Source: Limosilactobacillus coleohominis (GTDB lineage: Bacteria; Bacillota; Bacilli; Lactobacillales; Lactobacillaceae). Taken from it: a stretch of DNA of 36,256 bases. The stretch is from NCBI RefSeq assembly GCF_016901675.1, contig NZ_JACJKU010000007.1:1-36256 (forward strand), written 5' to 3'. Positions within the stretch are counted from its first letter, which is position 1; every line of letters begins with the position of its first letter. Of the stretch, positions 21,694 to 34,616 are shown one piece after another. The notes below the pieces were generated by a model that saw only the letters and a program-made list of their open reading frames with translations, was not told the origin of the DNA and ran no database searches. The translations under genes and the position numbers were made by a program.

Positions 21694-21694
21694 T
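21681..21694 (+). repeat. attL core
   Basis: CCTGTACTCTCCTT, the 3' end of tRNA-Ser, is repeated exactly at 35830-35843. Sequences outside the 14 bp differ, so this is the maximal core of the site-specific insertion. Confidence 0.9.
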
Positions 21695-21722
21695 AAATAG
21701 ATTTCATAGACTTTTAGGAAGT

Positions 21723-21762
21723 TCCCCAAACGTTGTTAAATCAGCATTTGAGGGATTTTTTA
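21723..21762 (+). terminator. Terminator downstream of tRNA-Ser, supplied by the island
   Basis: CCCCAAA and TTTGAGGG pair with one bulge, followed by a T run. It would end the tRNA transcript now that the original terminator (35855-35878) has been displaced. Confidence 0.6.
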
Positions 21763-21794
21763 TTTACTTAAAATGCAGGAATAAGTAAATAAAT

Positions 21795-21832
21795 GTTCTC
21801 AAAGAGTTCTCAAAAATGTATCAATTCTCATG
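21795..21832 (+). repeat. Integrase arm-type sites, left arm
   Basis: GTTCTCAAA at 21795-21803 and GTTCTCAAAA at 21806-21815 repeat with an 11-bp period; a weaker ATTCTCATG follows at 21824. The same pair with the same period occurs at the end of the integrase gene (35735-35755). Paired repeats about 75-100 bp from the core on each side fit the arm sites bound by the integrase N-terminal domain. Confidence 0.65.
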
Positions 21833-21847
21833 TTTCATTGACACGGT

Positions 21848-21873
21848 GGCCACCTTAATTGGTGGTCTTTTTT
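21848..21873 (+). terminator. Plus-strand terminator in the island left end
   Basis: GGCCACC / GGTGGTC stem, 6-nt loop, six T. It faces the minus-strand terminator that follows. Confidence 0.75.
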
Positions 21874-21877
21874 GTAC

Positions 21878-21903
21878 AAAAAAAGGTGCCCAAATCAGGC
21901 ACC
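21878..21903 (-). terminator. Terminator of the arpU-like gene
   Basis: On the minus strand GGTGCC / GGCACC with a 7-nt loop is followed by seven T. It is the last signal of the island's leftward transcription. Confidence 0.85.
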
Positions 21904-21960
21904 CCTCCAAAACATTAACAAAATCAATTTACAATATTTCCTTTGAAAATCAAATAATCA

Positions 21961-22365
21961 TCATTCGTACACCTGGGGCTTTTTCATTTCGTCTAAGAGC
22001 TGATCCATACCATAGTTTTTGGCGAATTCTACTAATGCCCGGTTCTTCATGCTATTAAAGCTACGTAAACTAATGTCATAGCGTTGGCATAGTTGGGGGC
22101 GAGTGTATTTCTTATTGATGATGTACTTATTGATAATGAATCTGTACTTAGAATCTTTAATGTTATCAATGGCATCTTCTACCCGGTGCAATCGCCAACT
22201 AAAATCAGCATGGTTGACGAATTTACTTTCAGTATGGTTTAAGTTGCTGTGAGAACCAGTACCCTCAAATGAGGGACTGGGTAAAAAGTTTATCTGTTTC
22301 AAATCATGCTTAATTCTTGAATAATCTTTTAGCACCTGGCGAATTTCTTTAATATCTTTTCGCAT
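21961..22365 (-). CDS. ArpU/RinA-type late transcription regulator
   Basis: A 134-aa protein resembling the ArpU family of phage late-gene regulators. These sigma-like helical proteins act on the packaging-operon promoter in Gram-positive phages. The C-terminal half contains the recognisable part: RLHRVEDAIDNIKDSKYRFI, then YTRPQLCQRYDISLRSFNSMKNRAL, a helix-turn-helix like sigma region 4. ATG at 22365 is chosen with AAAGGTGG upstream; the earlier GTG (22377) lies within that site. It is the last gene of the island. A terminator lies directly upstream, so its expression may need read-through. Confidence 0.7.
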   Translation of the reverse strand: MRKDIKEIRQVLKDYSRIKHDLKQINFLPSPSFEGTGSHSNLNHTESKFVNHADFSWRLHRVEDAIDNIKDSKYRFIINKYIINKKYTRPQLCQRYDISLRSFNSMKNRALVEFAKNYGMDQLLDEMKKPQVYE

Positions 22366-22401
22366 AATTGTAACCACCTTTACTGTGATTACTGGGTATA
22401 T

Positions 22402-22430
22402 AAGAAAAGCGTCGCAATTAACGACGCCTT
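22402..22430 (-). terminator. Terminator downstream of the head operon and upstream of arpU
   Basis: Minus-strand GCGTCG / CGACGC with flanking A-T/G-T pairs and a 7-nt loop, then TTTTCTT. It can end both the head operon and the candidate RNA at 22402-22619, and lies 37 nt before the arpU-like start. Confidence 0.82.
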
Positions 22431-22619
22431 AATAGTTACGTACAACTCTGCCAGTTGCCTGGTGAGCAAAGCTCTGTAACTTCAGCTATTTTATTTGGAA
22501 ATGGAATAAAGAAATCAATAAATTTAAACAATGCTTGAAAGCACCAACATTCTTTTGCTCGTTTCAACAGATGAACACATTGAAAGATGTTTATGATATA
22601 TTTGTGCTATTTCTAGCAC
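22402..22619 (-). ncRNA. Candidate structured small RNA in the island
   Basis: The 295-bp gap between the connector and arpU-like genes has no credible ORF. It starts with an extended -10 promoter and ends in an intrinsic terminator, giving an RNA of about 215 nt. Minus-strand structures: TGTGCTA-GAAA-TAGCACA at the very 5' end (7-bp stem with GNRA loop, 22620-22603), and near the 3' end a domain closed by GTTAC/GTAAC holding GAGC-TTT-GCTC and CCAG-GCAA-CTGG (another GNRA loop). I match it to no known RNA class. It could instead be a long arpU leader. Confidence 0.5.
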
Positions 22620-22625
22620 ACCTCT

Positions 22626-22634
22626 ATTATAACA
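22626..22634 (-). promoter_or_regulatory. Extended -10 promoter of the candidate RNA
   Basis: Minus-strand TGT-TATAAT, a TGn-extended consensus -10, about 7 nt before the 5' hairpin. The -35 (AGCAAT at about 17 bp) is weak. Confidence 0.55.
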
Positions 22635-22672
22635 CTTATGAATAGTTATTGCTATCCTATGCAATATATGAA

Positions 22673-22975
22673 TTATTGCCAGAATTTCCCTCGTAACTGT
22701 TGAATCAGCGAACGAACTTGATATGGTGTCTTTTTTATGTCAGTAGTTCGATTACTATACCAGAACTGAACTAATAAAATTACAGCTAAATTGAATTTGC
22801 GATTATTAATTAAATCTTCTTCGGGCTGGCCGTCCTTAACTGCATTAGCTACGTAATCCTTAGCTGTGTCAATATATCCTTGAATTAATACATCATCTTC
22901 ATTACCATCAATTCTCAAAGCATTTTTGATGGTATCAACGCTGATTTCTGGTTGATTGTTTATTGTATCTGTCAT
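22673..22975 (-). CDS. Phage head-tail connector protein, gp6-like
   Basis: A 100-aa protein of the phage gp6-like/DNA-packaging connector family, which forms a ring under the portal. ISVDTIKNALRIDGNEDDVLIQGYIDTAKDYV is the characteristic helical N-terminal part; the C-terminal SLIQQLRGKFW is also typical. ATG has AGGAGTG upstream. It follows the capsid gene across a strong hairpin (22998-23034) that may lower its expression relative to the capsid. Confidence 0.82.
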   Translation of the reverse strand: MTDTINNQPEISVDTIKNALRIDGNEDDVLIQGYIDTAKDYVANAVKDGQPEEDLINNRKFNLAVILLVQFWYSNRTTDIKKTPYQVRSLIQQLRGKFWQ

Positions 22976-22997
22976 TTTATATCACTCCTAACAAAAT

Positions 22998-23034
22998 AAG
23001 AGCCTACCCACTCATAACGAATAGGTAGGCTCTT
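22998..23034 (-). terminator. Hairpin between capsid and connector genes
   Basis: Perfect 11-bp stem AAGAGCCTACC / GGTAGGCTCTT. On the minus strand it is followed by ATTTTG, a weak U-tract, so partial termination is likely. Confidence 0.65.
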
Positions 23035-23060
23035 TGAGTTGACTGTTACTATATTATTGG

Positions 23061-24629
23061 CTACTTACCAGCAGGCTTGGTAGCAGAAAGTGAAACGTTA
23101 ATAGCAGCGTCACTTGAAATAGGTTCATAATCAGAACGAACAATGACAGATAATCCTTGGGCGAATTGATCGAACTTGTCCCATTGAGCGGTTACTTGGT
23201 TACGACGGAACACGGCAACGGCTTCGGAAATGTCACCAGCAATCATTGGGAATGAACCGTCAGTATTGTTAGGCATAACCGTATCACTAATCATTACCAC
23301 TGGGGCACCGAATAATGAGAAACCACTAGCAGCGGTAGGGTTTGGTTGTAGTAAGTAACGTCCTTCGCTGTCCTTCAAAGTATCCAGGTAGTTAAATCCA
23401 GACTGGTTGACTAACCACATCTTGTTTAAGGCAGGGTCTAATTCAACATTGAAAATCTTCTTTAAGTCATCGGTAGTAGTGGCATTTTCCTTCTTGAAAG
23501 TATTGCTGGTTAATACCTTCATAATGTTTTGATTGTCGGTATTGTCCACCAGCTTTTGCAGTTGGTTCTTAACTTCGCCCACAATATCAACGGCAGAATC
23601 TTCTACGATTTCATTTGACAGGGCAATCTTACCAGCACGGGTCTTAACGTCAAATTGAACGTCTTCAAACATATTAGCGTCAACGTCCGCAATGTCTGCT
23701 AATTCTTCCTTAGTAGCTAACACAGCGGTGTTGTTACGCTTGGCGATTGGATAATGACCAGAACCAGCAGAAACGGTCTTAACAGTGGCGTATTGAGCCA
23801 GATTATACTTGCTGTTCTTTAACTCTAAGACAGGCGTTACAACTTCTTGTGGAATTACGGCAGTAGCACCGGAAGTTTTCAAACCGTCTCGCATTTCACC
23901 GTGAGAGCGAATAAAGTCTTCAAAACTACGGGTTTCGGTCTTTTCGTTGTTATCAATAATAGTCTTTTCAGTCATCTTCTTGTTTTCCCCCTTGATAAAG
24001 TTTTCATAGGAACGTGTATTAACATTTACATTTTGGTTGTCTGAATTGTCAGCATCTACGTTGGTTGAATCATAAGCAGGTACGGCCACCACAGATACAT
24101 CAAACAGGTCTTTAATCTGATTGATAGTCCGGGTGATATTCCCCTGGTCGTCCTTTTCCCACTTGTCGGAACCATCGTCCACATCAAAACTGAATGAGCA
24201 ACTGTCTAAGTTGCCAGCCTTAACATTGGCGAATACATCGTTGGCGGTAGTAGTGTCTGGCAGGGTGGCATCGAAGTGCAGGCCCTTATCATCTGGGGTC
24301 AGCTTTAAAGTACCAGCCTTAACACTTGCCAGAACTTGTGTATAGTCATGGTCATTGAGCATTAACACATTAGATAAATCCACACCTTTAAGGGCATCCG
24401 GTGATACAACTTCTTTGAATCCTCCTAAATCCTTACTAGGAGTGTTCCAAACAATCGCATATCCAGAGAGCTTTTTAGGGCTGTTTTGAGCCACTTTAGC
24501 AGATTGTGGATTGTTGTCTGATTTATCTTGATTATCGCTGTCTTGTGTTTCTGTGGGAGCCTGTGGTGTAGGTTCTGCTGCTCGCAATTCAGCGTTAATC
24601 GTTAATCGGCGATCTTCCATTATCTTCAT
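23061..24629 (-). CDS. HK97 prohead protease fused to major capsid protein
   Basis: A 522-aa fusion. Residues about 50-190 are a peptidase S78 prohead protease: LSGYAIVWNTPSKDLGG, FKEVVSPDAL, probable catalytic H94 in LNDHD, S145 in SCSFSF, and LFDVSVVAVPAY. Residues about 219-522 are an HK97-fold capsid protein (AVIPQEVVTPVLELK, GHYPIAKRN, VRSDYEPISSDAAI). The linker contains two related motifs, RSYENFIKG (206-214) and RSFEDFIRS. An internal ATG (23975, residue 219) lies 11 nt after AAGGGGG, so free capsid subunits could also be made. The start overlaps the portal gene by 35 nt, with AAAGGA 4 nt upstream of ATG 24629. Separate genes are the usual arrangement, but fusions are known. Confidence 0.88.
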   Translation of the reverse strand: MKIMEDRRLTINAELRAAEPTPQAPTETQDSDNQDKSDNNPQSAKVAQNSPKKLSGYAIVWNTPSKDLGGFKEVVSPDALKGVDLSNVLMLNDHDYTQVLASVKAGTLKLTPDDKGLHFDATLPDTTTANDVFANVKAGNLDSCSFSFDVDDGSDKWEKDDQGNITRTINQIKDLFDVSVVAVPAYDSTNVDADNSDNQNVNVNTRSYENFIKGENKKMTEKTIIDNNEKTETRSFEDFIRSHGEMRDGLKTSGATAVIPQEVVTPVLELKNSKYNLAQYATVKTVSAGSGHYPIAKRNNTAVLATKEELADIADVDANMFEDVQFDVKTRAGKIALSNEIVEDSAVDIVGEVKNQLQKLVDNTDNQNIMKVLTSNTFKKENATTTDDLKKIFNVELDPALNKMWLVNQSGFNYLDTLKDSEGRYLLQPNPTAASGFSLFGAPVVMISDTVMPNNTDGSFPMIAGDISEAVAVFRRNQVTAQWDKFDQFAQGLSVIVRSDYEPISSDAAINVSLSATKPAGK

Positions 24630-25728
24630 TCATTCCTTTCTGTGTATTATCGTTAAAGCTGTCACCATCATTAGTAGGTGGTAGTCCTAACTTGCTACGG
24701 GCTTCATTTCTAGTCAGCAAGCCATTGTTATAACCATCAATTGCCTGTTGCTGAATAGTAGCAGGATCAAGGCTTAACAGCTTATCGGTGTTAAAAGTAA
24801 ACTGTTTACCAAATTTCTTTGATAATTCACTGGTAAAGCAATCAAAGTAGTGTTGCAGGGTACTTTGTAAGTATTGCAGGTTACTTTGTTGCTGGTTGCT
24901 ATGCTCGTTTTCAAGCCCTAACCGCTCAACGGGCAGACCAAATACTTTAGCAATTTGACGAGTAGTCCAGTCATTAGAATTGACTAACTTTAATACGTCC
25001 GTATTAAGTGACAAGTTGCTAACGTCCATAGAATCATCTACCACAACGGTTTTCATTGAGTTAGGCCCGGAATTGGCATCATCGAACTTTTGACGAATGT
25101 TCTTGATACTTTCAGGATTTAAATCAGCTTGATTAACTTTCACAACCGTTGTGCCATGAATACCGTTGTTAAAGAAGTTAAGTAGCAAATTATTACCAGC
25201 ATTCTGTACGCCTAATTCATCTTTCAAAGCATACAAAGGACTTAATCCAGCTACACCGTCAAGGGTGAAATATTTGAAGTGCAGCACCTTATTAGGCGGA
25301 ATCACTCGCTTAATCTTCCCGTTAGGTGAGTAGGTATACTTTAAGAGCCCGGTAATGGTGTCTTGGCTTACAGTCATTTGATTGTTTGGAATAAACTGCA
25401 AATTATGGTTCGGCAGAATTTCGGCGAACGAATTACCATTCAGTAGCATATTGGCAGCCAGAGCGAACTTGAAGTGAAAGCCGTCCATTGTTTCATTAGG
25501 GTTATCATTTATTTCTTTATTGATTACGTCTGTGTCACATAGAACGGGATTTGAAGCTATATCACTAGCAATAATGTTGATCGCTGTAAAAACATCACTA
25601 TTACGTAAGTTAGACGGTGATACATAAGAATATGGATCATCGCTTGAAATACTAACTAACGCATCAAGAACTGGATCACCACTAGTTGCCGTTGTCTTTT
25701 TACTGAACCAGTCATTAAATAAACTCAT
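24595..25728 (-). CDS. Phage portal protein, HK97 family
   Basis: A 377-aa protein of the dodecameric ring through which DNA enters the head. Recognisable features: SPSNLRNSDVFTAINIIASDIAS near the N-terminus, LLLNGNSFAEI, HFKYFTLDGVAGLSPL, NNLLLNFFNNG and AKVFGLPVERLG, followed by a glutamine-rich helix (HSNQQQSNLQYLQSTLQHYF). Length is normal for the smaller HK97-type portals. It follows terL by 19 nt and overlaps the protease-capsid gene. Confidence 0.93.
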   Translation of the reverse strand: MSLFNDWFSKKTTATSGDPVLDALVSISSDDPYSYVSPSNLRNSDVFTAINIIASDIASNPVLCDTDVINKEINDNPNETMDGFHFKFALAANMLLNGNSFAEILPNHNLQFIPNNQMTVSQDTITGLLKYTYSPNGKIKRVIPPNKVLHFKYFTLDGVAGLSPLYALKDELGVQNAGNNLLLNFFNNGIHGTTVVKVNQADLNPESIKNIRQKFDDANSGPNSMKTVVVDDSMDVSNLSLNTDVLKLVNSNDWTTRQIAKVFGLPVERLGLENEHSNQQQSNLQYLQSTLQHYFDCFTSELSKKFGKQFTFNTDKLLSLDPATIQQQAIDGYNNGLLTRNEARSKLGLPPTNDGDSFNDNTQKGMNEDNGRSPIND

Positions 25729-25747
25729 TAATTAATCTCACCACCTT

Positions 25748-27448
25748 TCATTGCATAAACTCTGGACTGGAATAGAAGTCATTGAGCGTCTTACTCTTTT
25801 CTTGGTCATCAAAGTAAGAACGGGCAAAAACATAAGCATTCATAAGAGCCGCTGCTGGATCAATTCGACTGTTAGAGTTACGGCTTTTCTTTTGTAGTTG
25901 CCAGCCGTTGTTATCTTCTTTAATCCGGGCATTAATCATTGAGTAGCGAAGCAGCTGGTTATCGTTATGAATGATTTTCTTTTGAAACAGCTTGTCTCTA
26001 AAATCACGGGTAGGAACATTGAGCGTCAAACTACCTTGTCTTACGGCTCGCATATCCCAGTTAGGCATCTGTTTTTCAATCTTGGTTAAAATATCATTGA
26101 AGTTATAGGGGTCATAACAGATAATCGGTTTCCAGTGGTTCTTATTGCTTAGATTAACTAGGTAATTGAACACATCATCGGTATCAATTACGCCACTTTC
26201 TAGGGTAGTGATAGAACACTCACCACGCTTCTCACCAGCCCGGTAATTGAAGCCGTCTAACTTAATCTTGCGATCTAGGCCATACTTAGTACCTACCCAC
26301 GAATGCGAATCCACGTAAAAACGGCCATCAATTGGAACTATCCAACTAATCGCCGTTAAGTCGTTGGTCTTACTCATATCCACGCCAATATAGACGTCAC
26401 GTCCGGTAGTGTCGGGGGCGTCTATTTCAGTTTTATCCCAGTCGTCAACACTAATATATGAATCATCGGCAGCTTGAAGCCACATATTAAAGTTTTTAGT
26501 TAAGACTGGTATTAAATCATCTTGGGCAATTCCTAAATCAACATCATCTTGAATTTTAGGTTGCATACGCTTCTTAATTGCTGGAATTTCAAAGATAGGA
26601 TTAGCTTTAATCCAGGTTTTAGGATTAGTAACTTCTTTACGGTCGTCTAATTCCCAGATAGCAATAAAATAGCGATCTGCTTGCTTCTTACCAGCTAACA
26701 CATCGCTTAACATCTTATATTCAGTGTACATAGGAACATTTAAATCCAGCCCACTGGTTGAAATAATTAGTAACAAGCTGTTAGGTTCCTGTGCTTGACC
26801 AGATTTCAGCACATCATAAACTTTTCTATCCTTAGCAGCGGCGTATTCATCAAGAATAATGGTAGTACCGGCGTAACCATCAAGGGTATTGGTGTCACTA
26901 GCAAGGGCAGTGGCGAAACTATCGGTCGGCAGATCAGTAATCCGTTCTTTTTGCACCTTAATTCGGTGACGGACTAGACGGCTAGTCTTTTGAACCTGTC
27001 TAAGACTACTGGAAAGCATATTATAGCCCAGCTTAGCTTGTTTCAGTGCATTTGAGACGAATAGGACTTGGCGGTTCTTAGCTGGTTTGTTTTCCATCAT
27101 CAAGCCAATAGAGGCTAGGGAAGCAGCTAGGTAAGTTTTACCAGACTTACGTGCCATTGACACCATACCCTGTGTATAACGTCGCTCGCCCGTTCCCTTT
27201 ACTCGCCAGCCGTATAACTCGCTTACTATCCATTCCTGGTATTCGGCTAGGTGAAACTTACCACCATCGGTTAATGGCAACATCTGGACAAATTGGCAGG
27301 CTTTACGGGCCATCTTCTCATCATAGTAGAAGGGGAAGCCGTCACTCTTTGAACGCTCTAAATCACGCTTGTAGCGCTCACAGGCTAGGCGTATCTTCTT
27401 GCCAGCTACGATCTTGCCAGATAATACATCATCAACGTATTTAATCAC
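25748..27448 (-). CDS. Phage terminase large subunit
   Basis: A 566-aa packaging motor. The N-terminal ATPase shows SMARKSGKTYLAA (Walker A-like, about residues 95-107) and TIILDEYAA (Walker B plus catalytic glutamate). The C-terminal RNase H-fold nuclease shows GVDMSKTNDLTA and a terminal acidic site in RIDPAAALMNA. It belongs to the Terminase_1 group that pairs with P27-type small subunits and HNH proteins in cos-packaging phages. The start overlaps the terS stop by 4 nt (ATGA type), so the two are translationally coupled. The reading frame is full length with key residues intact. Confidence 0.94.
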   Translation of the reverse strand: MIKYVDDVLSGKIVAGKKIRLACERYKRDLERSKSDGFPFYYDEKMARKACQFVQMLPLTDGGKFHLAEYQEWIVSELYGWRVKGTGERRYTQGMVSMARKSGKTYLAASLASIGLMMENKPAKNRQVLFVSNALKQAKLGYNMLSSSLRQVQKTSRLVRHRIKVQKERITDLPTDSFATALASDTNTLDGYAGTTIILDEYAAAKDRKVYDVLKSGQAQEPNSLLLIISTSGLDLNVPMYTEYKMLSDVLAGKKQADRYFIAIWELDDRKEVTNPKTWIKANPIFEIPAIKKRMQPKIQDDVDLGIAQDDLIPVLTKNFNMWLQAADDSYISVDDWDKTEIDAPDTTGRDVYIGVDMSKTNDLTAISWIVPIDGRFYVDSHSWVGTKYGLDRKIKLDGFNYRAGEKRGECSITTLESGVIDTDDVFNYLVNLSNKNHWKPIICYDPYNFNDILTKIEKQMPNWDMRAVRQGSLTLNVPTRDFRDKLFQKKIIHNDNQLLRYSMINARIKEDNNGWQLQKKSRNSNSRIDPAAALMNAYVFARSYFDDQEKSKTLNDFYSSPEFMQ

Positions 27449-27933
27449 CCGGCATCATCTTCTAAGAAGGCAGCAAACGGGTCTTCGGGGTCTTGTTGCT
27501 TTACCTTCTGGTTCTCTAACTTGGCCCGGCTGCTAATGTTCAGTCCGAAGTCACTAGCAATGGCACGCATATTCTTAATGGCCTTGTCTTGCATATTGAA
27601 GTATGGATTGATCTTCTTAGTGCCTTGCGAAGTCATGACACACAAGCCATCTTGAAGGATATACTTTTGGCAGGTGTGGACTGTCTGTGCTAGGACACAG
27701 TAATTAATTAATTGGCTACGGTCTAGGTTGCTTGCTGGTGTTTCCTTTTTGAGCAGGGGCACGATCTTTTGCCATTCCTTACGGGCGTAACCGTGTAACT
27801 CTTCGGGCACTGTTTCATCAATTGAATCATAGTTTTTTTTAAGGTTATTCTGGACTTCTTCACGATCTGCTAACTGATCTTTCGTCCAATGGCCTCTTAA
27901 CTTTTCTACTGGTTTAATTTTTGCTCCAGCCAT
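27445..27933 (-). CDS. Phage terminase small subunit, P27 family
   Basis: A 162-aa DNA-recognition subunit of the terminase. Family features: GHWTKDQLADREEVQ, VPEELHGYARKEWQKIVPLL, LINYCVLAQTVHTCQ and FGLNISSRAKL. In satellites this protein gives specificity for the satellite's own DNA. ATG follows AAGGTGGTG. It opens the packaging/head operon, about 80 nt downstream of a promoter with a terminator hairpin in between (27953-27992). Confidence 0.9.
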   Translation of the reverse strand: MAGAKIKPVEKLRGHWTKDQLADREEVQNNLKKNYDSIDETVPEELHGYARKEWQKIVPLLKKETPASNLDRSQLINYCVLAQTVHTCQKYILQDGLCVMTSQGTKKINPYFNMQDKAIKNMRAIASDFGLNISSRAKLENQKVKQQDPEDPFAAFLEDDAG

Positions 27934-27952
27934 ACATTCACCACCTTAGTTA

Positions 27953-27992
27953 TATAAAAAATAGCCAATAGACGAACATCTAATGGCTATTT
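27953..27992 (-). terminator. Leader terminator (attenuator) upstream of terS
   Basis: On the minus strand AAATAGCCA / TGGCTATTT with an inner TAGA/TCTA stem is followed by TTTTTTAT. It lies between the predicted transcription start (about 28013) and terS, so basal transcripts would stop before the packaging genes. One ACGAACA box lies in its loop. Confidence 0.7.
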
Positions 27993-28161
27993 ATACCCAG
28001 TAATCTTTATTATACGAACATTATACCTTTTTTAACTCAAAAAGGCAAGTCAATGTTAGTATTTTTACGAACATTGCCACTTAAATTTAAGGCTAATAAT
28101 CGGCAATTACAAAATTCTAAAAAACACGAACAATAATTGATTATATAGTCATATTGTTCGT
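27972..28161. repeat. Five ACGAACA boxes around the terS promoter
   Basis: ACGAACA occurs at 27972, 28014, 28067 and 28126 (plus) and at 28155-28161 (as TGTTCGT). The last two form a perfect 10-bp inverted repeat, ACGAACAATA / TATTGTTCGT, with a 16-bp AT-rich spacer. Chance expectation in this gap is far below one. One box touches the -10 of the terS promoter. Likely binding sites for an island or helper regulator. Confidence 0.6.
28020..28048 (-). promoter_or_regulatory. Promoter of the packaging/head operon
   Basis: Minus-strand TTGCCT (28048-28043), 17-bp spacer, TATAAT (28025-28020). Confidence 0.72.
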
Positions 28162-28221
28162 ACATGACGAGAAAAAACTATTAAAAATGGATTTTTACAA
28201 AAAGGAATGTGAATGTGTCGC

Positions 28222-28250
28222 TCTTTTCGCCGTCATACCAGCCCCCCTAA
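28222..28250. other. GC-rich island, candidate cos site
   Basis: A short GC-rich stretch (CGCCGTC, then CCAGCCCCCCT) stands out in an AT-rich intergenic region between the HNH and terS genes. In HNH/P27 cos-type phages the cohesive-end site often lies near these genes. Assignment is by position and composition only. Confidence 0.3.
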
Positions 28251-28254
28251 ACAA

Positions 28255-28285
28255 TAAAAAAGCCGAACGGTATTTCACGTTCAGC
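28255..28285 (-). terminator. Terminator after HNH and small membrane protein genes
   Basis: Minus-strand GCTGAACG / CGTTCGGC (one G-T pair), 8-nt loop, then TTTTTTA. Confidence 0.85.
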
Positions 28286-28305
28286 AATTTCAAATTTTAT
28301 TTTGA

Positions 28306-28488
28306 TTAGAATAGCAATTCAATAAACTTCACTAGCAGCCAAAGTAAGAAGATAAACATAACTAGTAACAATAGGTGTAACTTGAAGACTATCCAATAGG
28401 CAAATGTAAAGCCGATTAAAAGTACAATCAAAAAGAATATAACTACAAACCAGTTGCTATCTTTAAACCTATTCCATTTGTCTTTCAT
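28306..28488 (-). CDS. Small two-helix membrane protein
   Basis: A 60-aa protein that is charged at the start (MKDKWNRFKDSNW) and almost entirely hydrophobic after that, enough for two transmembrane helices. ATG 28488 is chosen because AGGAGA lies 7 nt upstream; it overlaps the HNH gene end by 20 nt in another frame. Size and topology resemble holins or superinfection-exclusion proteins, but no lysin accompanies it and the family is not recognised. Confidence 0.6.
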   Translation of the reverse strand: MKDKWNRFKDSNWFVVIFFLIVLLIGFTFAYWIVFKLHLLLLVMFIFLLWLLVKFIELLF

Positions 28489-28906
28489 GTTGTTGTCTCC
28501 TATATTTAGCTTGCCTTGTCTTTCGGTTGTGACAAGCATAGCATAATGTTTGTAGATTGTCTTGGTCTAGTCGTTTGCTCCAGTCATCTCTTAGCTCAAC
28601 AATATGGTCTACTAGATCACCTTTACGATATATTCCGTTTGCTTCACAGCTAACACATAACGGGTGCATCATTAACCAATGGTGACTTAGTTTCTTCCAT
28701 GCTGTCGAACGATAGAAACGTTGGTACTTACCTTCATGCTTACTGGTTATTCGCTTATAGTAGATAGCTTTATTAATCTTGTGTCGTTCCTGTTTATCTG
28801 CTCGTTTAATCGGCTTACGGTATTCATGTTCATTACAATAGCGCTGGTCATATGGTATTAACTTCATACAACCAGGGTGATTGCATAGGTGTCTTGGTTT
28901 ACTCAC
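28469..28906 (-). CDS. HNH endonuclease of the packaging module
   Basis: A 145-aa protein. The N-terminus is a zinc-ribbon-like segment (CNHPGCMKLIPYDQRYCNEH). The C-terminal HNH nuclease shows HPLCVSCEANG, DHIVELRDD, NLQTLCYACHNRKT with four cysteines and the catalytic DH. In many Gram-positive siphophages such a protein sits next to the terminase genes and is needed for cos cleavage. GTG start with GGAGATG upstream. It is separated from terS by the membrane protein gene, a terminator and the regulated packaging promoter. Confidence 0.88.
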   Translation of the reverse strand: MSKPRHLCNHPGCMKLIPYDQRYCNEHEYRKPIKRADKQERHKINKAIYYKRITSKHEGKYQRFYRSTAWKKLSHHWLMMHPLCVSCEANGIYRKGDLVDHIVELRDDWSKRLDQDNLQTLCYACHNRKTRQAKYRRQQHERQME

Positions 28907-28980
28907 GTTATCATCTCCATTCAGAGTAATCTTAATGATTAACTATCCGTCTAATTATTTTTCGTTTCGTCTGAGAGCAA

Positions 28981-29012
28981 AATAAAAAGGGCACTGTATC
29001 AAGCAGTACCCT
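28981..29012 (-). terminator. Terminator after the head-closure gene
   Basis: Minus-strand AGGGTACTG / CAGTGCCCT with one T-G pair and a 7-nt loop, then TTTTTATTTT. It separates the replication operon from the HNH gene. Confidence 0.85.
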
Positions 29013-29018
29013 ATATTA

Positions 29019-29366
29019 TTATGAATTATTACTTAATCCACTTTTATCTTGAAGTGTTACCAGGTCGAAGGCGTTAAGTCTATCATCGCTGTTGATAGCA
29101 ATAATCTTGTATTCATGATCTTTGTACTTAGCACTTAGTTTCTTATTAACATCTGGATTGTGTCTAATTGCCAATACTAAATCAGCGTTGACGTGTGTTC
29201 CTAGATTATCAAATGTTTGGGTCTGGGTATTGGTGTATTCTCCACACCAAACGGTAGTTAGTGGCTTGAATGTTTCGTGACCACCGCTAATGGTATCATC
29301 TTCTACGAAGTCATATGTCCCAAACTCAACCCGTTGTTTCATTCGTGTAATATCATAATTAAGCAC
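29019..29366 (-). CDS. Head-closure (head-tail joining) protein, SPP1 gp16-like
   Basis: A 115-aa protein matching the phage head-tail joining family: MKQRVEFGTYDF near the start, an ETFKPLTTVWCGEY segment, NADLVLAIRHNPDVNKKL, and DHEYKIIAINSDDRLNAFD. Such proteins form the last ring below the connector and receive the tail. GTG at 29366 overlaps the stop of the preceding gene by one base. Its location is odd: it is upstream of HNH and the terminase genes, at the end of the replication operon, rather than after the connector as in siphophages. For a satellite using foreign tails this protein would be the interface. Confidence 0.78.
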   Translation of the reverse strand: MLNYDITRMKQRVEFGTYDFVEDDTISGGHETFKPLTTVWCGEYTNTQTQTFDNLGTHVNADLVLAIRHNPDVNKKLSAKYKDHEYKIIAINSDDRLNAFDLVTLQDKSGLSNNS

Positions 29367-29575
29367 TACTTATCACCGTCCTTATAAATAAGTTGTCCGT
29401 TGGCGTCTATTATTTGTTCGTTTCTTAAAAAGTTCCATACGTCCATAAGTTTAATAGGCTTAAATGTTGTATCTTTTAGTTCTCGGTACTTTTTAATCGT
29501 ATAACTTAAATCAATTATCTTGCTTCCCATGCTATCCTTCTTTTCTGTGTGAGCGCCCACAATGGCACGCTTCAT
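29366..29575 (-). CDS. Small protein of unknown function
   Basis: A 69-aa mixed-charge soluble protein (IDLSYTIKKYRELKDTTFKP; IKLMDVWNFLRNEQIIDANG). The ATG at 29575 has AAGGCGG rather far upstream; an internal ATG at 29530 has AAGAAGGA 4 nt before it and may be the real start, giving 54 aa. Coupled to the head-closure gene by a one-base overlap. No motif recognised. Confidence 0.55.
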   Translation of the reverse strand: MKRAIVGAHTEKKDSMGSKIIDLSYTIKKYRELKDTTFKPIKLMDVWNFLRNEQIIDANGQLIYKDGDK

Positions 29576-29581
29576 TTATGC

Positions 29582-29798
29582 TACCGTGCCGCCTTGAATC
29601 GTTGTCATAGCAATGTTTATGGCAATAACTGTACGGTACGGTAAAAACTAAAAACATTTACTAGGTAACTTACTCTTACAACCCTTACAAGGTCACTCTT
29701 TATATACCGTCCTACCGTCCTTAATAGAGTGTTATCCCTACTGTATCAAGGGGTTAAAGGTAGGACGGTAGAAAAGATAAACCGTCCTTAACTGTCCT
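29582..29798. other. Repeat-rich intergenic region, candidate replication origin
   Basis: This gap holds many copies of a TACCGTCCT-like word: 29582 (TACCGTGCC), 29632-29643 (TACGGTACGGTA, tandem inverse), 29705 and 29713 (exact, 8-bp step), 29762-29770 (inverse), 29780 and 29790 (variants). TACCGTCCTACC (29705-29716) and GGTAGGACGGTA (29759-29770) form a perfect 12-bp inverted repeat around an AT-rich centre. It lies directly after the helicase gene, where SaPI-type islands have their iteron-containing origin. Confidence 0.6.
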
Positions 29799-29801
29799 AA
29801 T

Positions 29802-31442
29802 TCAAACACGTTTATATCCTTTATGTTCTTTGCCGAACAGCTTGCAATGGTTACTCTTTTTCCATTCGGGGTCGCCATCAAATACCATTGCAATCTTAGT
29901 GGTTAGTGAATTCTGGCCACCTCTAGCAATTTCTTTATCGGTTTGATTAAAGGCAACCTGTAATAATTCTGAATTAGTAAATGACTTCATCTTGTGTAAA
30001 TCCTCTTTAGCAATAATTGTTCTAACGTTATCGCTATCTTTACTTTGAGTAACATAAGCATATACGCCTTCATCTCTAACTCGTTTCCAATATTCCCTCC
30101 GTTGAAAGATTGAAAATTCGTCCCAGTCAATTGGAACCAGCAGGTTAGCATATTCCTTCATAAGGTTAGCTTGCATATCAAGAGTATTAGCTTCGGCTTG
30201 CTTTTGTTGAGCTGTTACTCGCATTGACTTGCTTAACATTAACGGGTGCCCGTTGTCATACAAAGTCTTTGCTTCGGCTAGCACCTGTAAAATCTCTGAA
30301 TTGTTGTAATCACCAGGCCGTGGTGACTTCTTGGTAGCTCGCTTAATTTCACAGTGAATAGGGAAGAAACGGCGGTTCCCAGTTAGATCGTGTAAATACT
30401 CTGTCCGGTTGACAGTACCAATAAATACATTTTTCCGTGGGTGATCTTCATTGATAGTGCCGTACGGGGAACGATAGCTGTCGCTTGTTGCGGTAACAAA
30501 AGATTTTGTCCGGGAAATAGAAGTCTCATTCATTGCTTCTAGTTCGCCAATTTCAATCAACCATTTTGCATGGACCTTGATTAAATCGTCTTTACGGACA
30601 CCCATTGTCATAAGCGAATCATCAAAGTATTTAGGTTCTGACAGTAAAGAAATAAGAGAACTCTTACCAATTCCCTGGGCACCATCAATTACCGGTACCA
30701 TGTCAAACTTGACCCCTGGATTATAAGCACGGGCAACCAGTCCAGTTAGCCATGTTTCTGTGACCGCTTTAACATAATCGTTGTTGTCAGCTCCTAGGTA
30801 ATCAATAAAGAAGGTTGCTGCCCGTTTTTTACCGTCCCATTTGACGCTTTCAATTCGTTGTTTTACTGGATTGTATGAATTGTTAAGGGCTGCTAGTTTG
30901 ATACCAGCTAGAACGGTTTGAGTTGAAGGGGTATAGCGATAATAACGTTCGATATTGTCAGTTAGTTGGTTAGTAAATTTATCGTCAACTGGTACATAGC
31001 TATTAGGCTTAGGATCTTTTCGATATTCAGCTTGTTCAGTAAATTGGTTCCAACGAAGCAACCCACTGTAATGGCTATCCCTAGTTAGGATTAAACGGAC
31101 GTTTTCTCGTGACTTTGCATTGATAGCGCCATTCTTTGAAGTTAGCATATTGTCCCTTACTTCTTGCTTAGAATCCGGCCGAATGCCTAATGCTATTTGA
31201 TCGGTTAGTCCTAGAATTAGCAGGGCTTTATAATCTGAATTAGCCATTTCAAGGCTTTTAACGTCTTTGAGAACGTCAGCGCCAAATATAGCTGCTTCTT
31301 TCTTTGAATACTCGTCTAGCAGCATATCTTCAATTTTGTTCGCAAGCTCTGCGCTTTTTGAATTAGAAGAGAATCGGTAACTGAATGCTTTAATTTCTTT
31401 TTTTAGTGCTTGAAGTTGTTCTTCAATATTTTCATCACTCAT
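29802..31442 (-). CDS. VapE/VirE-family replication helicase
   Basis: A 546-aa protein of the virulence-associated E family, superfamily 3-like AAA+ helicases found in PICIs and prophages. The N-terminal 170 residues are a helical accessory region. Then IDGAQGIGKSSLISLL (Walker A, about residues 250-265), KWLIEIGELEAM (Walker B), VFIGTVNRTEYL (sensor 1) and LTGNRRFFPIHC (arginine finger). The C-terminal part could be a winged-helix DNA-binding region. ATG directly follows the primase stop; AAGGGGG 12 nt upstream is the only site. With the primase it would replicate the excised island, and the repeat-rich region downstream is the likely template signal. Confidence 0.88.
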   Translation of the reverse strand: MSDENIEEQLQALKKEIKAFSYRFSSNSKSAELANKIEDMLLDEYSKKEAAIFGADVLKDVKSLEMANSDYKALLILGLTDQIALGIRPDSKQEVRDNMLTSKNGAINAKSRENVRLILTRDSHYSGLLRWNQFTEQAEYRKDPKPNSYVPVDDKFTNQLTDNIERYYRYTPSTQTVLAGIKLAALNNSYNPVKQRIESVKWDGKKRAATFFIDYLGADNNDYVKAVTETWLTGLVARAYNPGVKFDMVPVIDGAQGIGKSSLISLLSEPKYFDDSLMTMGVRKDDLIKVHAKWLIEIGELEAMNETSISRTKSFVTATSDSYRSPYGTINEDHPRKNVFIGTVNRTEYLHDLTGNRRFFPIHCEIKRATKKSPRPGDYNNSEILQVLAEAKTLYDNGHPLMLSKSMRVTAQQKQAEANTLDMQANLMKEYANLLVPIDWDEFSIFQRREYWKRVRDEGVYAYVTQSKDSDNVRTIIAKEDLHKMKSFTNSELLQVAFNQTDKEIARGGQNSLTTKIAMVFDGDPEWKKSNHCKLFGKEHKGYKRV

Positions 31443-32453
31443 TTATTCAATGACCCCCTTTACGATAATCTTTGGCTGACGTTTCTTCCAACTGTTAAAC
31501 TGTGCAGATTTATAGTTAATTGCGTTTTGAATGGTTATATCGCCATACGTAAAAGTACCAGTTTGTCGATCCCACTTAGGCCTGTATAGTTGTGTCTGTC
31601 GGAAAATCTCGTCCATTAACTGGGGGTCGCATCTGGTCCAGTAGGCTAGCATATTGCAGCAGCTCTGATCTTCGGCACTGTGGTCGAAGTCAAATACCTT
31701 GTGGGCTTGTGCTTCTCTTGTGCTGTCAAAGACTGGTACATCAAGCCAATTGCGAAGACGCTTGTTATCACCAGTATTGCTGTCAAGGATTGCTTGCATT
31801 ATTCGCTTAGCAGCAGGTGAAAGCTGTTGATGGTGTTTAATCTGGACAGGCTTAGCGTCCACATTGGCTTTCTGTTCTAATTCTTGGCCGAATACCAGTT
31901 GGTAGAGTTGTGACCACCTTTCCTGGCCAATTGTGGTTATATGTGACGTTTCATCATTTAGGCAGTTACCAGTTAAGGCTACGAATCTTTTATCATGGTA
32001 AAGTTCACGGCTCTTGTTGTTGGTGTATTCATCTTTAACCTTTTTGTATTGACCGAAGTTAGTTACGGAATCATCTATTCTAAAAATGAAATGTAATCCA
32101 GATTGTGACGTGGACACCTCACAGTAGGTGTTGTCTAGTAAGAAGAGAATCTGGTCAATCAGATTGACCTCACCTAACTTGTGTTCGGCGATTGTGTCGG
32201 TAATATCGTCTAAGTCCAGCAGGCACCAACTATCACCTAGAAAGTAGGCCGGGCCACCATATTGATTAGGTTGTGCATGGTAAGTCTGGCGAACTTCATT
32301 AAACGAACACCATGTTGATGGATCATTGCTTTTCGCATTCTGTCCTTGAATAGGATTCCAAGGAATCTTGTTAATCCGGTCGCTATTGACGACACGTTTC
32401 CATAACCCCCAACGGTTGAAACGGCCCATTTCACTTGGTAGGTAAACAGTCAT
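31443..32453 (-). CDS. AEP-type primase-polymerase
   Basis: A 336-aa protein with features of the archaeo-eukaryotic primase superfamily (NrS-1/phage primpol-like). The N-terminal NRWGLWKRV and KIPWNPIQGQNAKSNDPSTW segment is typical. Catalytic acids are in CLLDLDDI (motif I), then STSQSGLHFIF (motif II, SxxGxH) and RELYHDKRFVALTG (motif III). The C-terminal part (about 205-300) is helical and may contact the helicase. It overlaps the upstream 88-aa gene by 4 nt and directly abuts vapE, so the two work as a pair comparable to SaPI pri-rep. Confidence 0.85.
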   Translation of the reverse strand: MTVYLPSEMGRFNRWGLWKRVVNSDRINKIPWNPIQGQNAKSNDPSTWCSFNEVRQTYHAQPNQYGGPAYFLGDSWCLLDLDDITDTIAEHKLGEVNLIDQILFLLDNTYCEVSTSQSGLHFIFRIDDSVTNFGQYKKVKDEYTNNKSRELYHDKRFVALTGNCLNDETSHITTIGQERWSQLYQLVFGQELEQKANVDAKPVQIKHHQQLSPAAKRIMQAILDSNTGDNKRLRNWLDVPVFDSTREAQAHKVFDFDHSAEDQSCCNMLAYWTRCDPQLMDEIFRQTQLYRPKWDRQTGTFTYGDITIQNAINYKSAQFNSWKKRQPKIIVKGVIE

Positions 32454-32716
32454 TGCTGATCACCCGTTTCTACTTGGTCTAAAACGTTATTTTTTAATTG
32501 TTCTTTTAGTGCCCAAACCAACGACTGAATTGCCGCCTTATCTCGGCGAAGCTCATATGCTGTCATTTCGGCTTTTTCTATTGGATAATTGTCATTTTCA
32601 TCGTCTGGCACATATTGCAATGTTTGATCAAGCGTATCTTCTAAAGCGTTAATTAACCCCAACTCAAAATGAGCATTAAAACTTACTTGGTCTAAATCAA
32701 TTTTTGTCTTTTTCAT
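32450..32716 (-). CDS. Small acidic protein of the replication operon, unknown function
   Basis: An 88-aa acidic helical protein (LINALEDTLDQTLQYVPDDEND; DKAAIQSLVWALKEQLKNNV). ATG has GGAGGG upstream and the stop overlaps the primase start by 4 nt, so coupling suggests a replication or regulatory accessory role. No family recognised. Confidence 0.7.
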   Translation of the reverse strand: MKKTKIDLDQVSFNAHFELGLINALEDTLDQTLQYVPDDENDNYPIEKAEMTAYELRRDKAAIQSLVWALKEQLKNNVLDQVETGDQQ

Positions 32717-32744
32717 TTAAATTTTCCCTCCGTTTTGGTATAAT
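32716..32744 (+). promoter_or_regulatory. Plus-strand extended -10 promoter inside the replication operon
   Basis: TTTAAA (32716-32721), then TGG-TATAAT (32736-32744). It points against the operon, toward the stem-loop that starts within 5 nt of the -10. Confidence 0.5.
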
Positions 32745-32748
32745 GAAG

Positions 32749-32818
32749 GGGAATTCAATAAAGTTAGGCGGTGTATTGTTGGTTGGTCAGCAATACGCTT
32801 TTTCTTTATTAAATTCCC
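32749..32818. ncRNA. Long stem-loop, candidate antisense RNA or structural signal
   Basis: GGGAATT-C-AATAAAG (32749-32763) pairs with CTTTATT-A-AATTCCC (32804-32818), 14 pairs with one mismatch. Inside, GTGTATTG/CAATACGC forms an 8-bp stem with loop TTGGTTGGTCAG. The plus-strand promoter just left would start transcription at the first stem base, giving a compact RNA of about 70 nt, but there is no clear terminator. Alternatively it acts in the minus-strand operon leader or as a replication signal. Confidence 0.45.
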
Positions 32819-32833
32819 TATGAAACTTAGTCG

Positions 32834-33037
32834 TTACAGTGAATCGGTCGCCAAACTATCTTCACTGTCAACGGCTTTTTTATTATGCAAATTTCTTGCA
32901 CGAATTAAATCATTCATTGCCTCATCAAATAACTGCTTGTCCGTAAGTTCAACACCATTAATGGTGACAACTCCCCGGCCTTGCAAAGCCATAATAGTTT
33001 CTACCGCATCTTGCAGTAGTTGATTACGAATGCTCAT
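32834..33037 (-). CDS. Small protein of unknown function
   Basis: A 67-aa protein (MSIRNQLLQDAVETIMALQG; GVELTDKQLFDEAMNDLIRARN). GGAG lies 11 nt upstream of the ATG. Helical, no membrane segment, no recognised family. Third gene of the leftward operon. Confidence 0.6.
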   Translation of the reverse strand: MSIRNQLLQDAVETIMALQGRGVVTINGVELTDKQLFDEAMNDLIRARNLHNKKAVDSEDSLATDSL

Positions 33038-33052
33038 TAATAAATCGTCTCC

Positions 33053-33184
33053 TTAAAAACACAAATACCAAATTTCAAACAATACAAACATAAATGGCTG
33101 CAATGATACCAGCCAGACCCAAAAGCGATCAGCTTCGGGAGCCGCCCAATATTCCAACAACTTACGATCAATGGTTTGTAGCAT
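33053..33184 (-). CDS. Very short aromatic-rich protein, probably membrane-associated
   Basis: A 43-aa ORF. ATG at 33184 has GGGAGATG upstream. The start is polar (MLQTIDRKLLEYWAAPEADR), then a tryptophan/phenylalanine-rich hydrophobic segment of about 23 residues (FWVWLVSLQPFMFVLFEIWY) that could span or lie on the membrane. It fills the gap between the excisionase-like gene and the next small gene with tight spacing. No family recognised. Confidence 0.5.
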   Translation of the reverse strand: MLQTIDRKLLEYWAAPEADRFWVWLVSLQPFMFVLFEIWYLCF

Positions 33185-33197
33185 TTAATTCATCTCC

Positions 33198-33213
33198 CAA
33201 CATATCCCCCGTG
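33198..33213 (+). repeat. 16-bp direct repeat, copy 1
   Basis: CAACATATCCCCCGTG, identical to 34566-34581. This copy lies just past the stop of the excisionase-like gene and before the 43-aa gene. Confidence 0.7.
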
Positions 33214-33222
33214 CCAGGTTGA

Positions 33223-33495
33223 TTACTTAGTAGCCATGAACTTATCTAGCTCATTCCGATTGAAACGATAAACTTTGCCGACACGCTTGAATGGAATTAA
33301 GTCATCAGCTAACCATTCGTTAAGTGTGTGGTTTGAAATTCCTAAGTATTTACAAGTCTGTTTCTTATCTAGGTATAGAGGAACATTGACCTGTGAAACA
33401 CTAGCTTGAGCCTTAGCAGCCGTATCATATACAGATTTGATAATCGCATCTTGAATCGGCTTCGGTAGGCTGATTTCAGTCTTAATGGATTCCAT
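33223..33495 (-). CDS. Excisionase/AlpA-like helix-turn-helix protein
   Basis: A 90-aa protein with a MerR-type DNA-binding (HTH_17) domain: YLDKKQTCKYLGISNHTLNEWLADDLIPFKRVGKVYRFNRNELDKFM. Proteins of this class act as excisionases or as AlpA-type activators in islands. ATG at 33495 follows AGGAGG by 8 nt; the GTG upstream lies in that site. It is the first leftward gene, divergent from the repressor, the usual place for the first derepressed gene of a satellite. Confidence 0.78.
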   Translation of the reverse strand: MESIKTEISLPKPIQDAIIKSVYDTAAKAQASVSQVNVPLYLDKKQTCKYLGISNHTLNEWLADDLIPFKRVGKVYRFNRNELDKFMATK

Positions 33496-33513
33496 GTTGC
33501 TCACCTCCTTTTT

Positions 33514-33630
33514 ATGATTATTCAGTTCTTATTTACTGATTAATCATAATTTTCAATTATAATAATACACCATAGGCAAAAGAATGCAATAAAAAATCAC
33601 CAATTAACCATAAAATTATGAAAAATCAGT
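33514..33630. promoter_or_regulatory. Operators between the divergent regulators
   Basis: Three related sites: ATGATTATTCAGT (33514-33526, inverse), ACTGATTAATCAT (33535-33547) and its inverse relative at 33618-33630 (ACTGATTTTTCAT on the minus strand). The common core is TGA-N4-TCA, with TCATAATTTT continuing in two of them. They flank the leftward promoter and the probable repressor promoter, as expected for the island repressor. Confidence 0.6.
33562..33589 (-). promoter_or_regulatory. Main leftward promoter of the island
   Basis: Minus-strand TTGCAT (33589-33584), 16-bp spacer, TATTAT (33567-33562); a second TATAAT overlaps downstream. It drives the excisionase-like and replication genes. 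Confidence 0.6.
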
Positions 33631-33691
33631 GAAAAATGACCTCTTATGATGATATGATTATGTTAGTGCCAAAAAGGAGGTGAGCACTTCA

Positions 33692-34378
33692 ATGCTTGCA
33701 AACAGATTAAAAGTTTTAGTTGCTGAACGGGGGTTAATGGTAAAGGACGTCATTGAAAACACAGGAATATCTAGGAATGTATTATCAAATATGATTAACA
33801 ACCCCTTTGCTAACGTCTCCAATTCAAACCTTGACATTCTTTGTAATTATTTTGATGTTAAACCAAATGATTTTTATGATTATCTACCTTGGATTTTTAA
33901 ATTTGAATATGATTGCAATGTTCTTTCTTCTGTTCCTAGCTCAATTAATGAATTTAATAAGCAAAAAGGGACTTTCGGAATAACTGTAAAATCAGCCGGA
34001 AAATCTTTGACAGAACCTTATCTAATACATTTTAAATACAACGATATTTCAGATGACGACAGAAAAGAATCATTCGTAGAAATGACTGGTGTACCTGATT
34101 TTGAAGTTAGTTTTACTCCAGAAGAAGGAAAACAAATCGATCAAATTTATTCGGAAATGTCTCCATTTTTTAAGCACTGGTTTCAGTCTGCTATAAAGAC
34201 CAACGCTATCTTGTTTTTAAATGATATGCTAAAGCACTTTGGTTTAAAGTTAAAGCATCATAGTTCTTCAGTTGAAGTTACTTTTTATAGTGGCACGTTT
34301 GAAAATGGCGATATAAATTCAACCCTAAAAGAATTATTCAGCTTTACAACGAGTGTAAAGTCAGATGATTCTAAGTAG
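33692..34378 (+). CDS. Island repressor (XRE-type HTH, no LexA-like protease domain)
   Basis: A 228-aa regulator. Residues 1-65 are an XRE helix-turn-helix (LANRLKVLVAERGLMVKDVI, TGISRNVLSNMINN, LDILCNYFDVKPNDFY). The remaining 160 residues are of unrecognised fold and show no S24 peptidase motif or catalytic Ser/Lys pair. It is therefore unlikely to be cleaved in the SOS response and more likely to be released by binding a helper-phage protein, as Stl-type repressors are. ATG at 33692 follows AGGAGGTG; the GTG at 33680 lies inside that site. The ribosome-site region shares the 16-mer AAAAAGGAGGTGAGCA with the divergent gene. Confidence 0.78.
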   Translation: MLANRLKVLVAERGLMVKDVIENTGISRNVLSNMINNPFANVSNSNLDILCNYFDVKPNDFYDYLPWIFKFEYDCNVLSSVPSSINEFNKQKGTFGITVKSAGKSLTEPYLIHFKYNDISDDDRKESFVEMTGVPDFEVSFTPEEGKQIDQIYSEMSPFFKHWFQSAIKTNAILFLNDMLKHFGLKLKHHSSSVEVTFYSGTFENGDINSTLKELFSFTTSVKSDDSK

Positions 34379-34438
34379 TCTGTGATCGCTGCTTAAGATT
34401 GATAATTACAAACGAGGCCAATTAAATTGACCTCAAAC

Positions 34439-34523: not shown

Positions 34524-34565
34524 AGTTCCTTATCATTCAAATGGATAACGAATTATTCACCCTCT

Positions 34566-34581: not shown

Positions 34582-34616
34582 TCAATGAATCGCACGAAAG
34601 AGAGGGAAAATATAGA

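Follow-up and report, generated by a model that had tools for sequence, protein, structure and literature searches.

The gap between the HNH endonuclease gene and terS of a 14.2 kb satellite in Limosilactobacillus coleohominis (contig NZ_JACJKU010000007.1; the window, i.e. the whole stretch analysed, comprises 36,256 nt) appears to hold a cos and late-control region in which a short leader RNA and an ArpU-like protein may form a double-negative switch for the packaging genes, with lineage-specific control by the host purine repressor PurR; for this circuit as a whole, we estimate a probability of roughly 0.55. Transcription from the promoter at 28048-28020 would yield a leader ending at a terminator (27992-27953), and since the leader stops there, the default product would be an RNA of ~60 nt. 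The open 5' portion of this leader (28005-27992) would pair with arpU mRNA just 5' of its ribosome-binding site (22400-22387), and the terminated leader would most likely keep arpU translation low by acting as an antisense small RNA. ArpU, in turn, would activate or antiterminate the terS promoter; with the leader RNA repressing arpU and ArpU opening terS, the arrangement would amount to a double-negative switch for the late genes. A candidate host PurR operator at 28161-28126, located between cos and the promoter, would add purine (PRPP/ppGpp) control in this lineage. The leader terminator and the pairing of the leader with arpU are, from the comparisons below, better founded and more general than the PurR operator.

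Judged from its genes, the element is a capsid-forming, PICI-like satellite. It spans positions 21681-35843 and is bounded by 14-bp direct repeats (CCTGTACTCTCCTT), one of which (21681) is located at the 3' end of a tRNA gene (21605-21693) and the other at 35830; the individual features described below are all on the minus strand, unless stated otherwise. Between 21.6 and 35.8 kb, it encodes an integrase, a Cro/CI-type repressor, an excisionase-like HTH protein, a primase, a helicase, head-closure protein Hc1, an HNH endonuclease, TerS, TerL, a portal protein, a fused protease/major head protein, head-tail adaptor Ad1 and the ArpU-like regulator. Integrase and repressor genes at one end, a primase/helicase and its own packaging and capsid genes represent a layout which we take to be that of a capsid-forming PICI. 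Among the 20 island-region ORFs searched, several of which were without any match, no PHROGs match to a tail or lysis gene was obtained. Capsid-forming PICIs, to our understanding, share int, repressor, primase-helicase, HNH, cos and a terS-terL-portal-capsid-connector set, likewise lack tail and lysis genes, and are mobilised by a helper from which they obtain tails; the difference is the late switch proposed here. Named close relatives of the element were found in L. viscerum and L. avistercoris. A satellite fragment with a nearly identical terS (L007, DVNI01000053.1) is filed under a Candidatus Avacidaminococcus MAG, possibly as a result of a binning error.

The region under study is delimited by the HNH endonuclease gene (28469-28906; phrog_144, 5.4e-35; PF01844), which lies upstream of cos, and by terS (27445-27933; phrog_83, 1.4e-38; PF05119). 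A terminator scan placed a terminator-like hairpin at the junction of orf77 and cos (28262-28285), followed by a G-run element (GGGGGGCTGG..., 28230-28247) and the probable cosN core. A similar G-run was seen by eye 5' of terS in many distant relatives, which share the order G-run, GAGCG.CACA and ACTTTT...AAAATCCC between HNH and terS. Staphylococcus phage PVL carries an annotated 9-nt cos (CGGAGCAGA) at the corresponding site before terS, and by homology to it, cosN of the window is probably located near 28204-28225.

The first-pass annotation had proposed that a promoter fires into a leader terminator ahead of terS and that this promoter region represents a dedicated late-gene switch, with five ACGAACA boxes at its heart. 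The switch reading was supported: the terminator was found to be conserved, with 28 different stems, and to track arpU; the boxes, in contrast, had been misread as its central component. Neither cos nor the leader-arpU complementarity featured in that annotation. The promoter was recovered at the proposed position, with a -35 hexamer TTGCCT (28043-28048; promoter scan and relatives), a 17-bp spacer and a -10 hexamer TATAAT (28020-28025), matching at 10/12 positions and predicting a transcription start at ~28013. A second -10-like element (TATAATAA, 28007-28014) lies at this predicted start. As the promoter scan as a whole was no better than chance (44 promoters found, 42.3 expected), support for the promoter derives from conservation. 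Of the 67 arpU-bearing elements (from the best 80 of 158), 66 have a TATAATA 5' of the stem, as in the second -10-like element.

The leader terminator (27953-27992) was likewise found as described, consisting of a stem-loop at 27992-27959 with one of the boxes (box E) in its loop, followed by a U-tract (-16.4 kcal/mol; z=-2.8; 3 of 200 shuffles equally good). It was recognized by folding and conservation, and was not listed by a simple terminator scan of the window. In a sample of 29 representative terS leaders selected by us, a T-run hairpin folding at -12.8 kcal/mol or better was present before terS in all seven close relatives and in 11 of 22 distant relatives, and for these 18 hairpin-bearing leaders at most 1 of 30 shuffles was as good. 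The core that is widespread comprises the promoter and the leader terminator, together with the second TATAATA.

The presumed regulator is encoded by the last of the listed genes, arpU (21961-22365; phrog_248, 8e-21), for which the ATG at 22365 was taken as the start, the ORF listing beginning at a GTG at 22377. Its score against the ArpU family model TIGR01637 (35.6 bits) is below the curated cut-off of 43.1, for which reason the protein is referred to as ArpU-like only. The predicted structure (mean pLDDT 76.6) exhibits a C-terminal helix-turn-helix weakly resembling sigma region 4 (best Foldseek E value 0.34; no Foldseek match at 0.001), a likeness that does not separate an activator from an antiterminator role.

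To the extent that arpU could be detected, its presence and that of the leader terminator coincided. In a set of elements obtained by a head-protein profile scan (best 80 of 158, duplicates removed), a leader terminator, defined as a hairpin of -10 kcal/mol or better, was present in 67 of 67 distinct arpU-bearing elements, and in 0 of 19 elements without an arpU gene detectable by tblastn. The latter group comprises L039, L040, L043, L121, L221 and L238-L251, each with at least 1.2 kb of sequence downstream of the head genes; the 14 elements L238-L251 extend 10-11 kb downstream of terS, gave no arpU match at E <= 1e-3, and have no leader hairpin reaching -10 kcal/mol, the best values being -9.6 and -9.3. 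Loci ending 15-168 bases after Ad1 (L124, L126, L127 and L130) or at a contig end (L252) were left out of the arpU-less group, as were loci without terS (L174, L203 and L213) from the set, while the terminator count omits L161 (contig starting at terS) and L206 and L207 (contigs ending before arpU). No p-value is attached to this association, because the set contains groups of close relatives and diverged arpU genes may have been missed by tblastn; related elements occur on both sides of it (e.g. L240-L244; L039, L040 and L247), so the counts are not independent. In L207 (1521-1645), the terS leader is devoid of a hairpin and its terS and head genes resemble those of the terminator-bearing group.

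The 14 nt preceding the leader terminator (anti-arpU element GATTACTGGGTATA, 27992-28005) were shown to be the exact reverse complement of a stretch in the arpU 5'UTR (TATACCCAGTAATC, 22387-22400), which lies just 5' of the probable ribosome-binding site. A duplex of 14-20 bp was found in 64 of 66 usable arpU-bearing elements (from the best 80 of 158), even though in other elements both sequences differ from those of the window. The two true misses, L156 and L157, have arpU and the terminator without a duplex; L161 and L231 (arpU match partial and mis-anchored) were omitted from the duplex count, L231 being kept for the terminator count.

For comparison of the two sides, 58 distant elements were aligned, each side separately and with six window-family rows excluded, resulting in 26 distinct segment pairs. 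Their 15 core columns (3-17) contained no mispair and two gap cells, and mispairs in the flanking columns 1, 2 and 18 occurred in 17, 7 and 6 of the 26 pairs, respectively. When partners were redealt over columns 2-17, as few non-pairing cells were obtained in 1.25% of 2000 shuffles. In the 24 gap-free pairs, from which L162, L170 and L227 (two gapped segment pairs) are excluded, 360 of 360 cells pair while 9 of the 15 columns vary, compared with 7-66% pairing in slid controls. The observed paired percentage was matched by 2 of 500 shuffles and the number of two-sided pairs by 223 of 500; two-sided covariation in the distant set was confined to one column (G-C to A-U, 3 sequences), and the strength of the comparison therefore lies in GU-compatible variation and not in double changes. 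Further matched changes between the window family and the distant set were noted by eye. Hybrid energies calculated without the terminator arm had a median z of -4.65, with none of 100 shuffles as good in 60 of 66 elements. This restriction to the stretch before the stem was chosen after RNAduplex with the whole leader had given weaker z-scores (-0.3 to -5.3, 14 elements), a weakening that in our opinion arises from participation of the terminator arm. For the element itself, the mean probability of being unpaired was 0.73 in the leader and 0.46 in the arpU 5'UTR.

Collectively, these sequence comparisons render leader-arpU pairing well supported, and the conserved complementarity near the ribosome-binding site of a target mRNA is of the kind known for trans-acting antisense small RNAs. 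Alternatively, the element at the terS leader and the arpU 5'UTR could be an inverted DNA site for ArpU or another regulator, with RNA pairing being incidental. Inverted copies at both genes, the predicted helix-turn-helix of ArpU, weakly sigma region 4-like, and the co-occurrence of arpU with the leader would suit such a site. The copies nevertheless differ within elements, with every difference in the 15 core columns being GU-compatible, and they lie downstream of the predicted start and beside the ribosome-binding site, which is odd for an activator. Protein sites need not differ only in ways tolerated by GU pairing, and we therefore prefer RNA pairing and consider a DNA site unlikely.

In the proposed switch, the anti-arpU element would sit in the leader released by termination, and the arpU element would follow arpU's own terminator-like hairpin with its T-rich tail (22402-22430; terminator scan and relatives). 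As the pairing is located 5' of the Shine-Dalgarno sequence and not on it, the sign of its effect is uncertain; activation instead of repression, or pairing inside one long late mRNA, are possible within the same frame. In the window family, the arpU 5'UTR also includes a stretch of ~75 nt that is strongly conserved and looks like a structured RNA, with a terminator-like hairpin after it (window 22490-22406, minus strand); this region is less alike in L010, and an Rfam search gave no family at gathering score for it.

Terminator-like hairpins are not limited to the leader. In the window and its close relatives, they were found (no shuffle control applied) at the Hc1/HNH junction in 6/6, at the head protein/Ad1 junction in 7/7 and at the Ad1/arpU junction in 7/7, the window positions being 29012-28988, 23034-22998 and 22430-22406, respectively; this density of junction hairpins suggests that late transcription is antiterminated. 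The same hairpins could be taken to mean that the leader hairpin is a mere insulator or weak attenuator, with terS expressed through leaky read-through, and that the inverted pair of boxes upstream of the promoter (boxes A and B) is itself a hairpin, its arms being able to pair (-11.9 kcal/mol in the window) ahead of a T-run. We regard this as improbable, as the leader hairpin lies downstream of a conserved promoter and tracks arpU, and the core and 30-bp spacing of A-B are fixed while the flanks change.

Such an organization resembles the late promoter pR'-tR' of phage lambda, where Q antiterminates transcription and where a -10-like element at the start site and a leader terminator are present. 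The satellite shares the promoter, the start-site -10-like element, the leader terminator and further terminator-like hairpins between late genes, and so has the Q-type layout, in layout only. It differs in that its leader base-pairs with the presumed regulator's mRNA and in that no Q homologue was identified, no Q-family protein being named among the island proteins searched; an unrelated antiterminator could conceivably be encoded. With the ArpU/RinA/LtrC late activators (phi13 Ltr, TP901-1 Alt), as described in PMC13123087, the satellite has in common a small phage-encoded regulator of the packaging operon and a sigma-A type promoter at the start of the late genes. Compared with these systems, the satellite is without a repeat array just 5' of the -35, its promoter lies after cos, and it has the leader terminator and the element complementary to arpU mRNA.

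All five ACGAACA boxes reported by the first-pass annotation are present, at 27972, 28014, 28067 and 28126 on the plus strand and at 28155 on the minus strand, and contribute five of the 12 exact copies in the whole window (4.5 expected from shuffles). Their described arrangement was also recovered: boxes A and B (28126-28161) form an inverted repeat with arms of 9 bp each, box D (TGTTCGT, exact 7-mer, 28014-28020) abuts the -10, and box E (27978-27972) lies in the terminator loop; box C is an exact TGTTCGT at 28067-28073. None of C, D and E has a proper partner box, the nearest approach for C being a weak CCGATT 31 bp upstream (pair score 9.7 bits). Conservation of the boxes, which the annotation had expected, was partial. 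Among seven distinct close relatives (window counted), box D is exact in six and box E in five, and five carry an A-B type pair scoring 25 bits or more; box D reads TATTCGT in L008, and box E reads TATTCGT in L008 and TGTTCGC in L007. A motif search across the wider set of terS relatives showed the exact 7-mer to be rare upstream of terS.

Boxes A-C are under constraint when aligned sequences are compared, being identical to those of L011 at 21/21 positions (57/112 outside the boxes) and to those of L041 at 20/21 (57/112 outside), although L011 and L041 are almost the same sequence in this region and so do not constitute two independent tests. In the comparison with L042 (21/21 in the boxes, 97/107 outside), the difference was not significant. 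Box spacing (29/59/53/42) is identical in L042 and L011. Boxes D and E lie inside a block that is almost invariant throughout, and their conservation accordingly says nothing special about the boxes.

The notion that all five boxes make up a single motif dedicated to late genes was not supported; A-B resemble a host PurR operator and occur in only some lineages. Of the binders suggested for the boxes, the island repressor and the ArpU-like protein fit poorly. For the island CI repressor, the cI gene of the window has no tblastn match in L041, L042 and L010, and L041 and L042 retain boxes A and B. Helper late-regulator boxes were rejected for the exact form of the A-B dyad, which was found in no helper prophage among 50 genus genomes, its four places there being three satellites and the region upstream of a guanine-deaminase-like host gene. 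LexA, whose dyad differs in spacing from A-B, was likewise rejected for A-B on account of that spacing, although L007 contains CGAACAATTGTTCG; replication-origin iterons were rejected as the 226-bp gap next to the helicase gene contains no exact box.

The ArpU-like activator itself could bind the boxes as repeats, in the manner of Alt/Ltr proteins, and Ltr proteins are indeed described as binding repeats upstream of late promoters in PMC13123087. Near-identical ArpU proteins are encoded by L010 and L011, however, of which only L011 has boxes A-C, only 4 of 68 arpU-bearing rows (from the best 80 of 158) have a PurBox pair scoring 20 bits or more, and a single box lies within the zone from -76 to -32 named for Alt in the same paper; we thus consider ArpU binding to the boxes highly unlikely. 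About as little credence is given to the boxes being cosB-like TerS binding sites next to cosN. Several copies are indeed placed over 190 bp between probable cosN and terS, and lambda cosB likewise lies between cosN and terS, yet L008 and L010, with TerS identities of 95% and 98%, respectively, are both devoid of A-C, and A-B match the chromosomal operators of purE, permease and guanine-deaminase-like genes with the same spacing.

We favour the reading of A-B as a candidate host PurR operator, which they look like in core, spacing and score. A PurBox matrix was built from eight host pairs (six upstream of purE, one of a purC-like ORF and one of a permease-like ORF, both of these ORFs being named by eye; the window pair was excluded), for which the training pairs scored 25.5-31.9 bits. 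The A-B pair scored 28.0 bits, the next best site in the 36 kb scored 17.0, and 2.18 Mb of Markov random sequence contained no pair of at least 20 bits. A pair scoring 23 bits or more was present at each of the ten purE loci examined (six of these being in the training set), and in purE upstream regions of the genus, inverted CGAA/TTCG boxes are 30 or 31 bp apart, the distance in the window (CGAA to TTCG) being 30 bp. A strict dyad search of 50 genus genomes returned five places, i.e. three satellites, the guanine-deaminase-like gene and an NCS2/xanthine-permease-like gene, and its reversed control in the same genomes returned none; both host genes score under the equivalog/subfamily cut-offs of their best models, the permease being above the NCS2_1 cut-off. 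A looser dyad pattern was not enriched in the host genome (7 versus 7 in the control).

The host encodes a Bacillus-type PurR (NCBIfam TIGR01743, 337 bits; cut-off 258.7). According to PMC8789054, Bacillus PurBoxes are 14-bp boxes with a central CGAA, a 16-17 bp spacer and AT-rich flanks, and PurR has PRPP as inducer and ppGpp as anti-inducer. A-B correspond to such operators in having two inverted boxes with central CGAA/TTCG, cores 30 bp apart (30-31 bp in the definition, equivalent here to a 16-bp spacer) and AT-rich flanks. Bacillus-type operators adjoin purine genes, whereas A-B lie in a mobile satellite, between cos and the packaging promoter and ~77 bp upstream of its -35. From this match, PurR may be predicted to bind A-B.

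PurBox pairs of at least 20 bits are missing from L008 and L010 and from 72 of 79 distinct rows. In a distant lineage (L121 and L124-L126; TerS ~38% identical to that of the window), a 29-bit pair is located just before the TATAAT upstream of terS, and its sisters L127-L130 have no pair of at least 18 bits. This distribution, with the pair present in some lineages and missing in L008, L010 and L127-L130, suggests that the operator is a lineage-specific addition that comes and goes.

How Gram-positive satellites time expression of the capsid and packaging genes that they carry is, to our knowledge, largely an open question, and a limited search of the open-access literature returned no description of a late switch of this kind. 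We tentatively suggest, with the odds still against it, that a widespread family of Lactobacillaceae satellites times packaging by a bistable RNA-protein switch, in which the aborted leader would serve as a small RNA against the mRNA of the element's own late activator or antiterminator and to which some lineages would have added a host PurR operator. If true, a precise circuit would be built from two base-pairing stretches of ~15 nt, one terminator and one regulator; packaging would also respond to the purine state of the host in lineages with the operator, which would constitute the first link between a host purine repressor and phage-satellite packaging, as far as the open-access literature was searched.

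A second PurR-bearing satellite family, encountered in a viral scan (L083 and 12 similar loci), was rejected, since by eye its dyad, located after an SPP1-like portal gene, resembled a hairpin followed by a T-run; in L083 (2380), L093 (11481), L113 (8823) and 10 similar phage loci, the CGAAC dyad reads as a hairpin/T-run near the end of that gene. Two AT-rich contigs of 14-15 kb with terL and portal genes (L105:6515 and L108:4548) have a 27.5-bit PurBox-like dyad right before a TATAAT and the packaging genes. A dyad was also observed upstream of a small ORF and an HNH gene in L097 (3916) and L133-L137; in L135, both arms carry a matched change (GCGAAC/GTTCGC), so that this dyad could be a hairpin and not a PurR site. 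As they may be hairpins, the dyads before HNH or packaging genes in L087/L097 and L105/L108 are leads only. In the same phage group as L097, an integrase-like gene (phrog_216, 186 aa; L097:4093-4653) was found just upstream of the HNH operon.
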